A DNA stretch of 47,549 nt from Candidatus Aquicultor sp. Its GTDB lineage: Bacteria > Actinomycetota > Aquicultoria > Aquicultorales > Aquicultoraceae. Both the position numbers and the translations under genes were made by a program. Position 1 is the stretch's first letter. Every line of letters begins with the position of its first letter. Below, in pieces: positions 19,580 through 42,700 of this stretch. The stretch is from assembly GCA_030682615.1 (NCBI GenBank), contig JAUXNY010000082.1, positions 1 to 47,549 of the forward strand. Reading direction: 5' to 3'. Under the pieces are notes generated by a model, which made no database searches, was not told the DNA's origin, and was given only the letters and a program-made list of their open reading frames with translations.

Positions 19580-19867
19580 CGCGAGAGAAAATTGGGCTTC
19601 TGCTTAGCTGACCTGGTCTTTGACCCCACACTCGCCTGCTGGAGGCCTCGCAGCCACTTTAGAGCCACTGATACCCCTCTCGTCCTCCTGGAACGGCAGG
19701 GCTTACTCCTAAGACGCACCATGCTCAACAAAAGTCAGATATAGATAGCTTTTGCCTTACGTGGATCCTTTTGCCTGCATCTAGCTTGGATTATCCGGCG
19801 CAACACTAGGCGGCGCCGGGGCAACCACAGACCTAAACAGAAACCCAAAGTCATAATCTACCTGATT
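19580..19867. other. Convergent intergenic region without a gene
   Basis: This 288-bp stretch between the AEC gene and the convergent comF-like gene has no convincing coding frame. A short GGTC-TTT-GACC dyad followed by CCCACA (around 19614-19630) resembles the motif often found at ends of RAYT/Y1-transposase-associated repeats. No second copy or transposase was seen. It may be decayed mobile DNA or simply spacer. Confidence 0.25.
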
Positions 19868-21392: not shown

Positions 21393-21613
21393 ACGTTAGT
21401 GCGCCCGGCAGGGCACACGTACTTGCCGTCAACAATTTAACGATTTAATGTAAAAAGGTATGCCGGCGATTTGCTTTGCTGGTAAACTATGTATACATAT
21501 GGGAAGATTCTAAGAATAAACGGGGCATAGAGTCGACCTGCATTTCCGCTACTGTAATTATTCAAAGTATAAGAATTGTCGGTCGACCCGAGCATAGTTA
21601 GGAGAGTATGCGC
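21393..21613 (+). promoter_or_regulatory. Leader region of the hibernation factor gene
   Basis: About 220 bases between the csp terminator and hpf. It contains a 7-bp inverted repeat (GTCGACC 21532-21538 / GGTCGAC 21581-21587), two direct GCATAG copies flanking it (21525 and 21592), and a weak TTGCTT-N17-TACATA promoter (21471-21499). A raiA-type structured RNA is sometimes found at this site in Firmicutes and Actinobacteria. I cannot confirm that motif here. Confidence 0.3.
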
Positions 21614-22171
21614 ATGGAAATAATCGTAAAAGGCAGGCATATGGAGGTAACCGATGCGCTTCGAGCATATGCCGAAGAGAAAATCGGGAGGATAAGCAAG
21701 TATTTCGACAAAATCATCAAAATCGAAATCGCTTTCATAGATGAGAAGAACCCGAGCATCGAAAAATCGAAGACCATCGAGGTAACAGTCTTCCCGAAGG
21801 GGCCTATTTTAAGAGCCAAGGAGTCCTCGACCGACATGTATGCCTCAATCGATATGGTCGTCGACAAGCTCGAACGGCAAATCAAACGTTATAAGAACAA
21901 ACTCTCCAAGAGCGCCAAAGGCTCTCCGAAGCCCGGTGAGATGAGCGCGGCTCTCGTCGCGGTCGAAGACGAGTACGATGGGCCGCGTATCGTCAAGGTC
22001 AAGCAGATTGCGGTCAAGCCGATGGACGCCGAAGAGGCGACCCAGCAGATGGAGCTTTTAGGGCACGATTTCTTTGTCTTCACCAACGCCGACACCGATG
22101 AGGTAAACGTCGTCTACAGGCGTCGCGACCATAACTACGGTTTAATTGAGCCGATTTCCGGCAAGATGTAA
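21614..22171 (+). CDS. hpf: Long-form ribosome hibernation promoting factor
   Basis: A 185-residue protein. Residues 1 to about 100 form the HPF/RaiA (S30AE) domain that occupies the mRNA/tRNA channel of the 30S subunit (MEIIVKGRHMEVTDALRAYA). A linker follows, and about residues 125-185 form the C-terminal dimerisation domain (IVKVKQIAVKPMDAEEA ... FFVFTNADTDEVNVVYRR) that pairs 70S ribosomes into 100S particles. ATG 21614 is preferred over ATG 21608 because the GGAG at 21601-21604 is 9 nt away rather than 3. In many related genomes secA follows directly; here about 5 kb of other genes is inserted. Confidence 0.93.
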   Translation: MEIIVKGRHMEVTDALRAYAEEKIGRISKYFDKIIKIEIAFIDEKNPSIEKSKTIEVTVFPKGPILRAKESSTDMYASIDMVVDKLERQIKRYKNKLSKSAKGSPKPGEMSAALVAVEDEYDGPRIVKVKQIAVKPMDAEEATQQMELLGHDFFVFTNADTDEVNVVYRRRDHNYGLIEPISGKM

Positions 22172-25793: not shown

Positions 25794-25823
25794 TTGACGG
25801 ATATGCAGTATATCCGTCATAAT
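25794..25823 (+). promoter_or_regulatory. Toxin-antitoxin promoter with operator dyad
   Basis: TTGACG (25794-25799), 18-bp spacer, CATAAT (25818-25823). A perfect 10-bp inverted repeat, TGACGGATAT / ATATCCGTCA (25795-25804 and 25810-25819), covers the -35 and the spacer, as expected for autorepression by an AbrB-type antitoxin. Confidence 0.55.
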
Positions 25824-25841
25824 TGCATTGAGGTGGTAATC

Positions 25842-26093
25842 TTGATAAGGCGATTAACAGAAAGAAGCAGTGTAAGCATTCCTAAAGAGAATCTTGAACA
25901 TGTCGGTGTGAATCCGGGGGATTATTTCGAAGTGTCGGACGACGGCAAGCGGATTATCCTCACGCCGAAAGTCGTTGATGACAAGTTTTCAGAGAAAGAG
26001 TGGGAAGAGCTTGAGTCGCTAGCCAAAGAGGCGGGCAAGAAATACAAGACAGCAGCCGCAGCTAAGAAGCACCTCGAAAGGCTGTCCGAGTGA
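25842..26093 (+). CDS. AbrB/MazE-like antitoxin
   Basis: An 83-residue protein with an N-terminal swapped-hairpin DNA-binding fold (RRLTERSSVSIPKENLEHVG, NPGDYFEVSDDGKRIILTP) and a charged helical tail (SEKEWEELESLAKEAGKK) likely to wrap the toxin. TTG 25842 is chosen because GAGGTGG (25830-25836) lies 5 nt upstream; the longer frame from 25794 would begin inside the promoter. Its TGA stop overlaps the start of the RelE-like toxin gene (GTGA, 26090-26093), the standard arrangement for a toxin-antitoxin operon. Confidence 0.82.
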   Translation: MIRRLTERSSVSIPKENLEHVGVNPGDYFEVSDDGKRIILTPKVVDDKFSEKEWEELESLAKEAGKKYKTAAAAKKHLERLSE

Positions 26094-26365
26094 ACTACGA
26101 GTACAAACCTTCCTTTGAGCGAATGTTTAAGAAGCTTGAACCGGGTGCGAAAATACGGGTAGTCGATGCGATATTCTCACTAATCGACTTTTTCGAGACC
26201 GGTCAACGAACCGTCGGTCTCGGACTAAAACAGCTCCGGGGTGATTTTTGGGAGATTAGAGTCGACCTTAAAATCCGAGTTCTTTTTGTTTTCGAAAGTG
26301 ATACGGTCAGCTTCATAATCGTCGGAACCCATGACGATATCTCGAAATTCCTTCGCAGGTCTTAG
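26090..26365 (+). CDS. RelE/ParE-family toxin
   Basis: A 91-residue protein with the RelE/ParE fold pattern: YKPSFERMFKKLEPGAK start, GLKQLRGDFWEIRVDLKIRVLFVF centre and FIIVGTHDDISKFLRR end. RelE-like toxins cut mRNA on the ribosome; ParE-like ones poison gyrase. The catalytic set is not distinctive enough to choose. GTG 26090 overlaps the antitoxin stop by 4 bases, implying translational coupling. A strong hairpin follows the stop. Confidence 0.85.
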   Translation: MNYEYKPSFERMFKKLEPGAKIRVVDAIFSLIDFFETGQRTVGLGLKQLRGDFWEIRVDLKIRVLFVFESDTVSFIIVGTHDDISKFLRRS

Positions 26366-26373
26366 AACAAGCA

Positions 26374-26412
26374 GAAAGCAGGCGACAAAGAGAAACTTTG
26401 TCGCCTGCTTTC
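26374..26412. terminator. Hairpin terminator between convergent toxin and DsrE genes
   Basis: A perfect 17-bp stem (26374-26390 / 26396-26412) with a 5-nt AGAAA loop stands between the stop of the toxin gene (26365, plus) and the stop of the DsrE gene (26419, minus). T-runs are short on both sides, but the stem is very strong and the position fits a shared bidirectional terminator. Confidence 0.75.
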
Positions 26413-26418
26413 CCTCTA

Positions 26419-26778
26419 TTAGAAACTAACCACACTCGACTCGGAAACTAAATTGGCAAACTTAACCGCGTCAATGGATGAGGCGTTCAACGTTTTAAGG
26501 TCTTCTTCTGTCACCCCACGGGCAACCAAGCAAGCCCCTCAAACATACACTGGAACGTTCCCCTTGACCACTTTCTCGATTAACTCAACAAGAGGTGGAA
26601 GGCCGACCCCATGCACGCTCTTGGCCACCGCCTCCTTTGTCAAATACGCCCCCTCGCCAAGCAGAGCGATGCCCACCTCTATGCCGGCCTCATGAGCGCC
26701 CACAGCAGTAACAAAGGCTAAGGTACACTTAGTCGGATCATCGGTCGCGTGGGTGACAACTACCAGAATCTTTTTCAT
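26419..26778 (-). CDS. DsrE-family protein with in-frame UGA (candidate selenoprotein)
   Basis: Read leftwards from ATG 26778 (AAAGGAG, 6-nt spacer) the frame encodes MKKILVVVTHATDDPTKCTL ... VKGNVPVYV, then TGA at 26541-26539, then continues GACLVARGVTEEDL and so on to TAA at 26419, 119 codons in all. DsrE-family proteins normally have VCGAC at this point, so UGA (codon 80) replaces the first Cys of a CxxC-like pair. The 39 codons after UGA still match the family, and total length is normal. A hairpin lies 3' of the UGA at SECIS-like distance. Selenocysteine insertion is the best reading; a recent Cys-to-stop mutation is the alternative. DsrE folds serve sulfur or thiol-redox transfer. Confidence 0.72.
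26507..26529 (-). promoter_or_regulatory. Candidate bacterial SECIS hairpin
   Basis: On the minus strand GGTTGCCC-GTG-GGGTGAC can form a 7-bp stem with two G-U pairs, a 3-nt GUG loop, then a mismatch and two more pairs. The loop starts 20 nt after the UGA and has G at its first position. This fits the published loose model for bacterial SECIS elements (loop about 16-37 nt after UGA, G in the first two loop positions). A GGGC/GCCC alternative pairing overlaps it. Confidence 0.45.
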
Positions 26779-26939
26779 CTTCAACTCCTTTCATAATTTC
26801 TTTTTATGTCTCCTTCTCCTTTAAGTAAGTTATTAAACATCGTTGTTAGAGCTGGCCGGGAAAATCTAGACAAACTTAAAAGGGCATTTTCGACCAAACA
26901 TGCCATCGTCAACCGACATGCTTCTACCAATCTTCTCCA

Positions 26940-29637: not shown

Positions 29638-30763
29638 TTGGCAACGGATTTTAGTGAAGAGATAAGCTTGGTACGTGACAAGATACGAGACATAAAGGAT
29701 TATCTTTGACGTCGACACTAAGCGCGATGAGATAACAAAGCTTGAAAAAGAGGCGAGCAAGCCGGGCTTCTGGGACGACCAGGAAGCCGCGCAAGCCTTG
29801 ATGTCGAAGATGAGCGATATAAAAGACGACATCGTAGCCTGGGAGAAGGCGGATGATGACGCCGAAGAACTCGAGATAATGAACGAACTCGCAGTCTCCG
29901 AAGGCGATGAGGCGCTCGCCTCCGACGTGGAGCGAGACTTCAGGCGTTTGAAGAGATACGCCGACGACCTCGAGCTGCGGAGCTGGTTTACCGACCCGCT
30001 TGACAGCCACAGCGCCATCGTCACCGTCCACCCCGGGGCGGGCGGCACCGAGTCGCAAGACTGGGCCGAGATGCTCATGCGCATGGTAATCCAATGGTCG
30101 AAAGATAAAAACTATCAGGCGAGCGTCTATGAGATTGCGGCCGGCGACGAAGCCGGCATCAAGACCGCGACCTTTACCATCCAAGGGAAATACGCTTACG
30201 GCTTTCTGCAGGCGGTGCGCGGCGTCCATCGCCTCGTGCGGATATCTCCGTTCGATTACGGCGGCCGGCGCCACACCTCGTTTGCGTCGGTCGATGTCAT
30301 CCCGGAGGTCGAGCGCGACGTCCAAATCACTATCGACCCTGCTGATTTAAGGATAGAGACCTACCGCTCAACGGGCGCGGGCGGCCAACATGTCAACGTG
30401 ACCGACTCCGCGGTGCGAATCACGCACACCCCGACAGGCGTTATGGCCCAGTGCCAGAACGAGCGCTCGCAAACTAAGAACAAAGAGACCGCGATGATAA
30501 TCCTCCGCGCCCGCCTATACGAGCGCATTCAGGCGGAGCAGGCGCGCGAGGCGGCCGAGCGGCACAAGCAAAAAAAAGAGATAGCCTGGGGGAGCCAGAT
30601 AATGTCGTATGTGATGCACCCCTACCAACTCGTCAAAGACCACCGCACCGGCGTCGAGAAGGGCAACGTCCAGGCGGTTCTCGACGGCGACCTCGATGAT
30701 TTCATAATCGAGTACCACCGGCAGCGGATTTCGGAAGCCGCCGATGAGCAGAGGGCGACATAA
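29638..30763 (+). CDS. prfB: Peptide chain release factor 2 with programmed +1 frameshift
   Basis: The first frame starts at TTG 29638 (SD AGGGGTG) and reads 23 codons to CTT TGA (29704-29709). Skipping T29707 continues in the +1 frame (from 29708) to TAA 30763, about 374 residues in all. The slip site CTT-TGA-C is preceded by AAGGAT, placed like the internal SD of other prfB genes. Low RF2 lets the ribosome stall at UGA and shift, an autoregulatory loop. The anticodon-like SPF motif (about 203-205) and catalytic GGQ (about 248-250) are present, confirming RF2 that reads UAA/UGA. A plain ORF call begins only at 29798 and misses the N-terminus. Confidence 0.96.
29692..29710 (+). promoter_or_regulatory. 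prfB programmed frameshift site
   Basis: Internal SD-like AAGGAT, then TAT, then CTT TGA C. The frame-0 UGA at 29707-29709 is bypassed by a +1 slip on CTT. Confidence 0.93.
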
Positions 30764-31590: not shown

Positions 31591-32280
31591 GTGAAACGCT
31601 GGTGTATAATCACAACACTAATCATAGTCTTGGGCGTATTCTTCGCGATAATCGTCCCGACCATCGTCAGTTACTCGATAGAGAAGACCGTTATCGAGAC
31701 TATCCGCCGCGATTACGACCTCAAGGATTGCGCCTACGTCCGCGTCGACCACAGTTATCTGGAACTCTTTCGCGGCAAGATAGAGCGCGTTTACATCGAA
31801 TGCACTAAGAGCGAGTTCAACGGCATCAAAGCCAAGAGCGTCGTCATCACAGTCAAAGACATCGAGTTCGACGTCAAAAAGACCCTGCAGACGCGTGACG
31901 CCGCGATTCGTGACATCGGCAGGGCCAGAGCGAGCATAGTCGTCAGCGAAGCTGAGATAAACAAGTTTATCGCGAGAAGTCATGACGATTTGAAAGGTTG
32001 GCGCCTCGACCTTAAGCCAAATGAGGTTGTCGCAAACGCCGAAATCGAGATGATAGGCAAGCTCGATGTTTCGTTCAGGCCCAGGCTAAAGGGGGACCGG
32101 CTCGTTCTCGAGCCGACCGAGGCTAAGTTCGCAGCCACCGACAGCCTCGGGCTAAGCGAGGCTAAGAACTGGATAGGCGAGATAGGACTCGATCTTCCCG
32201 TGAGCGACCTGCCGTTTAATATGAAAATCACCAAAGTGCTCGTTCAAGACAACCAGATGTTGGTCAACGCGGGCAACTGA
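31591..32280 (+). CDS. Membrane-anchored DUF2993 (LmeA-like) protein
   Basis: A 229-residue protein with one N-terminal hydrophobic anchor or signal (residues 5-25, IITTLIIVLGVFFAIIVPTI). A beta-rich body fits the DUF2993 pattern: VDHSYLELFRGKIERVYIEC, KAKSVVITVKDIEFD, VVSEAEINKFIA and a late LPFNMKITKVLVQDNQMLVN. LmeA of mycobacteria, in the same family, binds phospholipid and aids lipoglycan elongation; a lipid-binding envelope role here is inference. The SD TAGGAG contains the stop codon of the preceding PHP gene; start is GTG 31591. The gene ends in TGA, one example of UGA used as a true stop here. Confidence 0.72.
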   Translation: MKRWCIITTLIIVLGVFFAIIVPTIVSYSIEKTVIETIRRDYDLKDCAYVRVDHSYLELFRGKIERVYIECTKSEFNGIKAKSVVITVKDIEFDVKKTLQTRDAAIRDIGRARASIVVSEAEINKFIARSHDDLKGWRLDLKPNEVVANAEIEMIGKLDVSFRPRLKGDRLVLEPTEAKFAATDSLGLSEAKNWIGEIGLDLPVSDLPFNMKITKVLVQDNQMLVNAGN

Positions 32281-42321: not shown

Positions 42322-42664
42322 GGGGGCGACAGGCTTCGACTGAGGTTGGTTTCGGCAAGAGAAGCGAGTCGAGCTCAGACAACTCGTTAAACTATCTGAC
42401 AAAAAACAAACGCAAACGAACCAATTGCACTAGCCGCTTAATTGTGGCTCGTCAAACTAGAGATTGCTCACATCTCTAGGGCGACGTCATCATAGTGAGC
42501 TCACTTCACCCGGACGCCCATAGGGGTTGAAGAAAATCTTATGGGATAGCGACCAGTTTACCCTGACTGTGGGGATGCCGGAAGCGAATAACAAACATAG
42601 TCTACACTCGTAGATGCTCTTGTGGAAATGCCTGAGGACGTGGGTTCGATTCCCACCGCCTCCA
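42322..42664 (+). ncRNA. ssrA: Transfer-messenger RNA (tmRNA)
   Basis: The 5' end GGGGGCGACAGGCTTCGAC and the 3' end, with T-arm GTGGG-TTCGATT-CCCAC and acceptor CGCCTCC, pair as a tRNA-like domain. The CCA is not encoded. The tag frame starts at GCA 42412 and reads ANEPIALAA followed by TAA (42439-42441), a typical degradation tag ending in ALAA. Pseudoknot-rich sequence fills the rest. It rescues ribosomes on broken mRNA together with SmpB. Confidence 0.97.
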
Positions 42665-42665
42665 C

Positions 42666-42700
42666 AAAAATAGGCCGCCTTTTATAGGTGGCCTATTTTT
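42666..42700 (+). terminator. tmRNA terminator
   Basis: AAAAATAGGCCGCCT / AGGTGGCCTATTTTT, about 15 bp with one G-U pair and a 5-nt loop, ending in a T-run. Confidence 0.92.

Follow-up and report, generated by a model that had tools for sequence, protein, structure and literature searches.

DsrE-like selenoproteins have been described on several occasions. The Sargasso Sea yielded two UxxC sequences in 2005 (PMC1088965), Desulfovibrio vulgaris was added in 2006 (PMC1794560), and the GOS ocean survey of 2008 listed "DsrE 1" and "DsrE 2", the latter with 15 Cys homologues (PMC2398784). A 2026 review places DsrE-like selenoproteins (WP_014524487.1) among the families of largely uncharacterized function (PMC13188914). 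In DsrEFH, a persulfide is carried on DsrE-Cys78, of which TusD-Cys78 is the counterpart, and E. coli TusA feeds TusBCD (PMC3397948). YedF is a TusA–DsrE fusion tied to selenium metabolism (PMC5322559), and reductive DsrAB has been reported together with DsrEFH in two Aquicultor genomes (PMC10591310).

We analyzed a window of DNA from Candidatus Aquicultor sp. (the whole stretch of 47,549 nucleotides, to which all window positions below refer), in which an earlier note had proposed selenocysteine (Sec) insertion in a DsrE-family gene. The sequence evidence supports this proposal: we put the probability that this is a functional selenoprotein gene, with UGA codon 80 decoded as Sec, at about 94%. 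The three grounds for doubt that the note had named (no Sec machinery in the genome, a TGT or TGC codon in relatives, and loss of conservation past the UGA) were each contradicted by the data described below, and its remark that DsrE-like selenoproteins were already known is borne out by the cases of 2005, 2006, and 2008. The Aquicultor gene is a further member of this known class. Like the published proteins (PF02635), its product has a Pfam DsrE domain and Sec in a UxxC motif, and its gene has a downstream bacterial SECIS-like (bSECIS) element; as compared by description only, it differs in its lineage (Aquicultoria, new for the class), in the breadth of its orthologues (at least six phyla), and in that no Cys orthologue was found. 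In the openly readable literature, we found no account of how widely the Sec-only form occurs, of its conserved SECIS, or of its pairing with tusA. Since the published sequences were compared by description only and the subscription literature lay mostly outside the search, we claim no new family.

The DsrE-family gene, its product, and its neighbors

The gene occupies positions 26419 to 26778 on the minus strand, starting at ATG (26778-26776) downstream of a Shine–Dalgarno-like AAGGAG (26785-26790, minus strand), and encodes 119 residues. As had been noted, the translated frame continues past the UGA: 79 codons lead to the TGA at 26541-26539, the only one inside the frame, and 39 more lead to the TAA at 26421-26419. 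A standard ORF caller stops the gene at this UGA, and automatic annotation often truncates selenoproteins. When the TGA was read as Cys, the translation matched the Pfam DsrE model from residue 2 to residue 117 (58 bits against a cutoff of 22.7; E 1.3e-15), so the family similarity spans the UGA, as claimed earlier. Codon 80 is the first position of a U-G-A-C motif with Cys83 as the partner residue. The UxxC pattern was present in every Sec-form relative read, and Cys homologues have CGAC, CSAC, or CTQC at this position, in agreement with the view that the UGA stands in place of the first Cys. Just 3' of the gene lies an intrinsic-terminator-like hairpin (26373-26413, minus strand; 18 pairs, a 5-nt loop, and a T-rich tail); about one such site would be expected by chance in the stretch, and this one is unusually long. 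The neighbors of dsrE are a divergent secA and a toxin-antitoxin-like pair. The MazE-like antitoxin gene (25794-26365, plus strand) lies just past the terminator and overlaps a small downstream ORF that has no Pfam match.

An AlphaFold2 model generated from 23 orthologues had a mean pLDDT of 96.3, and the solved structures best matching this predicted structure were DsrEFH, YchN, and TusBCD subunits. The product would consist of one domain with the DsrE/TusD/YchN fold, with Sec where YchN-type and DsrE-type proteins have their active-site Cys. It resembles DsrE of DsrEFH and TusD of TusBCD in fold (2hy5, 2d1p) and in the active-site residue, which carries sulfur in the known systems, but has Sec instead of Cys and an extra Cys three residues on. 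It also differs in being encoded by a single gene: adjacent F/H or C/B partner genes were sought at the locus and not found, and for this reason we did not file the gene as DsrEFH or TusBCD. Any partner in Aquicultor would have to act in trans. E. coli YchN (PDB 1jx7) shares the fold, and its CxxC-xxxRG motif aligns directly with UxxC-xxxRG (a profile search placed CKTCTDGRG of YchN against (U)xxCxxARG of the family), although YchN has Cys rather than Sec and the two sequences are only weakly similar (16% identity over the matched structures). YedF likewise associates TusA and DsrE domains and has a CGxC motif in its DsrE part (PMC5322559), whereas the corresponding units here are two adjacent genes in sister lineages, non-adjacent in Aquicultor, with Sec in the DsrE part.

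Of the 19 distinct UG[AS]C-group sequences, which come from Rubrobacteraceae, Rokubacteria, Acidobacteria, Myxococcota, and Chloroflexota, 14 have a small tusA gene encoding a CPxP motif, in the same orientation as dsrE and 14-121 nt upstream of it. None was seen beside dsrE in the UKGC and UGGC groups, and no conserved dsrE neighbor other than tusA was found across the family. The Aquicultor dsrE has no tusA neighbor, though its own subclade usually has one, and no trace of a former tusA upstream of it rose above noise. One TusA is encoded elsewhere in the genome, near AprB-type ferredoxin-like and sulfide:quinone oxidoreductase-like genes (translations named by eye). In two Chloroflexota genomes, the Sec-dsrE gene is immediately preceded by a methyltransferase gene that itself contains an in-frame UGA (DLWTGU-I-x-GALLE; L055:27-1000 and L056:2147-2960); presumably, this methyltransferase resembles the known arsenite-methyltransferase selenoprotein family.

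Sulfur chemistry, in which sulfane sulfur from a TusA-type donor is relayed or reduced, appears to be the most likely activity of the protein, at roughly even odds. The DsrE-type fold, the sulfur-carrying Cys78 of the known relays, and the tusA pairing together favor selenol-based handling of sulfane sulfur, and the pairing of tusA with dsrE in the window's subclade and in sister lineages is what suggests a selenol-based persulfide relay or reductase. Decoding of UGA codon 80 by the cell's own SelA, SelB, SelD, and tRNA-Sec, directed by a bSECIS hairpin that starts 13 nt downstream, is strongly supported by the sequence. In the proposed sulfur chemistry, Cys83 would act as the resolving partner for a Se-S intermediate, through which the sulfane sulfur would be passed on or reduced. 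The main rival on function accepts Sec insertion but takes the protein for a general UxxC thiol oxidoreductase that reduces disulfides or peroxides, and not for a sulfur-relay or persulfide enzyme. The UxxC pair itself agrees with this reading, as do the prevalence of thiol oxidoreductases and their homologues among bacterial selenoproteins, of which they make up most (PMC1088965), and the 57 of 71 distinct sequences that have no adjacent tusA, Aquicultor included. It fits less well with a DsrE/TusD-type fold in which Sec sits where the sulfur-carrying Cys does, and with tusA being the most consistent neighbor in the window's own subclade; we consider it a real possibility, short of probable. 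As for the selenol-based relay, since tusA is missing beside dsrE in Aquicultor, as it is in most of the family's other groups, this function is uncertain for the Aquicultor genome.

Conservation of the UGA codon and of a downstream hairpin

We compared the Sec codon across relatives. Scanning bacterial and archaeal genomes gave 28 loci in which dsrE codon 80 was readable, and it was TGA in all 28. Among 396 Actinomycetota genomes, each of the 26 matches scoring 108 bits or more contained one TGA, and among 400 Chloroflexota genomes, each of the 39 scoring 101 bits or more contained a TGA. Direct reading of the codon covered 71 distinct sequences; the remaining Chloroflexota rows are known only to contain one inner TGA. 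Because the search profile has Cys at the UGA column, a Cys orthologue would have scored higher, so that the search was biased against a Sec-only result. The same codon in all 28 loci and all 26 Actinomycetota matches excludes chance. All closely scoring orthologues, from Actinomycetota, Chloroflexota, Rokubacteria, Myxococcota, Acidobacteria, and Poribacteria, had UGA, and none of those found across these six phyla had Cys at the Sec codon.

The sequence past the UGA is also conserved. Compared with Candidatus Aquicultor primus, it showed two synonymous and no nonsynonymous changes, and compared with a Chloroflexota orthologue, it gave a dS of 0.55 and a dN of 0.10, values much like those before the UGA; post-UGA dS is somewhat lowered because the hairpin overlaps this region. 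In near and middle relatives alike, dN was well below dS, and the C-terminal part was conserved. The post-UGA frame is under purifying selection.

The earlier note had described a hairpin with a G-first loop beginning 20 nt after the UGA. The hairpin itself was confirmed, while its position needed correction: the stem begins 13 nt after the UGA, and it is the loop that begins at nt 20. This putative bSECIS element, GUUGCCC-GUG-GGGUGAC (26510-26526, minus strand), has a 7-bp stem, a 3-nt loop (26519-26517), and a UGA-to-loop distance of 19 nt, and its stem length, GUG loop, and spacing agree with the published bSECIS rules (PMC13188914). In an alignment of 22 sequences, 99.4% of cells were paired, and two pairs had changed on both sides. 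Among the 71 distinct sequences, 50 cells had changed on both sides, compared with a mean of 18 (maximum 28) after shuffling and at most 17 in slid versions. One pair occurred as CG, GC, UG, or AU and was always paired, the two outermost pairs were looser (86-89% paired), and the loop was GUG, with GGG in 7 of the 71. Codon choice was constrained as well: at four consecutive hairpin codons, third-base identity among same-residue pairs was 0.90-0.91, while the other codons of the gene averaged 0.45, and 22 of 23 genes encoded Arg87 by CGT, a codon that they seldom use for Arg at other positions (6/49). Single-sequence folding gave a z of -1.9, weak evidence by itself, and an Rfam search over 26400-26800 returned no SECIS family, only chance-level snoRNA and frameshift-element matches.

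These observations bear on the possibility that the gene is decaying and its TGA arose by nonsense mutation, leaving a 79-residue fragment or nothing. Such decay has a parallel in the related genome G003: its long dsrE copy is frameshifted by 1 nt near codon 12, and a second, truncated copy lies about 2 kb away. The window copy is intact, however, and the recurrence of this TGA across orthologues from at least six phyla, the conserved frame and family similarity past it with dN below dS, and the covarying hairpin refute a pseudogene for the family and make one highly improbable here. The truncated G003 copy adjoins an antitoxin-like sequence, with fragments related to the window's MazE-like/small-ORF pair beside it (L021).

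Sec machinery and UGA usage in the genome

The Sec machinery, which the earlier note had named as the first thing to look for, was located in full in the host genome (2.14 Mb, 153 contigs, with the window on contig 153). The genes selD (with its own in-frame UGA) and selA and the N-terminal part of selB are consecutive at the end of contig 17, and a C-terminal selB fragment and tRNA-Sec (72.6 bits; gathering score 47) lie at the start of contig 4. Since selB is split over two contig ends, we read this arrangement as an assembly break within one sel cluster. The selD UGA stands in the motif UAAK, and downstream of it lies a hairpin whose loop is GGG (L033, 1531-1560). We located tRNA-Sec in 22 of 28 carrier genomes, the others being possibly incomplete. 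The selA gene was present in 21 of 25 carriers of the Sec form of dsrE, in 22 of 26 genomes with non-Sec forms, and in 8 of 9 near relatives without the gene; its co-occurrence was dropped as a discriminating test, as non-carriers have selA about as often.

UGA might instead be read as Trp, Gly, or Cys, through code reassignment or leaky read-through, without selenium. UGA stops are indeed scarce within the window, where the 31 ORFs of at least 180 aa end in TAA (16), TAG (14), or TGA (1), and this rarity would suit such a reading. Against it, the claims that UGA is a normal stop elsewhere and that RF2 is present both held. The LmeA/DUF2993-like gene (31591-32280) terminates at TGA exactly where its domain ends, and RF2 is encoded in the window with its own UGA-dependent programmed frameshift site, CTT-TGA-C, at 29704. 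With complete Sec machinery, a SECIS-like hairpin, and the UGA at the redox position of the family, reassignment has an even smaller chance than gene decay. In RF2, the N-terminal part lies in a different frame from the main ORF (29798-30763, plus strand). The window also contains a tmRNA gene (42322-42667, plus strand; 185.7 bits) and a raiA RNA (Rfam RF03072, 162 bits; 19599-19841, minus strand) about 1.8 kb from a raiA-type hibernation factor gene on the opposite strand (21608-22171, plus strand). A sequencing or assembly error turning TGT or TGC into TGA, conceivable in so fragmented an assembly, is already refuted and has a negligible probability, as relatives at 97%, 96%, and 86% identity and remoter ones, in independent genomes from many studies, all keep the TGA.

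Descent and meaning of the Sec-only family

The nearest named relative at the locus was Candidatus Aquicultor primus (class Aquicultoria, Actinomycetota; 97% protein identity), and the nearest outside the genus were Myxococcota and Chloroflexota orthologues with 82-87% identity, the phylum search around the Myxococcota carrier covering 7 genomes. The Sec form of dsrE was absent from one genome of the same genus and from the other Aquicultoraceae genomes searched. These gaps, together with the closest kin outside the genus lying in other phyla, suggest that the Aquicultor gene was likely acquired horizontally. No relative was found in the viral contigs searched, and plasmids yielded only two distant records, of which the Microvirga one was of the Ser type.

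In a tree built with the Sec column masked, the Sec forms, a Ser-x-x-Ser group, and the remoter Cys forms were separate, the exception being a single Cys row, very long-branched and of unsure placement; the joining point of the Ser group was not settled by the tree. The closest-scoring non-Sec forms were Ser/Ser, and the Cys forms were more distant. The Ser-x-x-Ser DsrE proteins (L086, L087, L089, L090, and L091, one of them on the Microvirga plasmid) probably have no thiol chemistry at that site.

A more far-reaching reading, which we regard as unlikely, is that of a Sec-obligate DsrE subfamily in at least six phyla, with the near-invariant SECIS core GCCCGUGGGGU, that would act with TusA as a selenol relay of sulfur (or selenium) and in which Cys could not replace Sec. 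Under Sec obligacy, the inability of Cys to replace Sec in the reaction would account for the lack of a Cys form inside the clade. That Sec was never found swapped for Cys in this family marks a reaction in which selenium seems hard to replace, and the pairing with tusA provides a concrete, testable hypothesis for this selenoprotein family, namely a selenol-persulfide relay.
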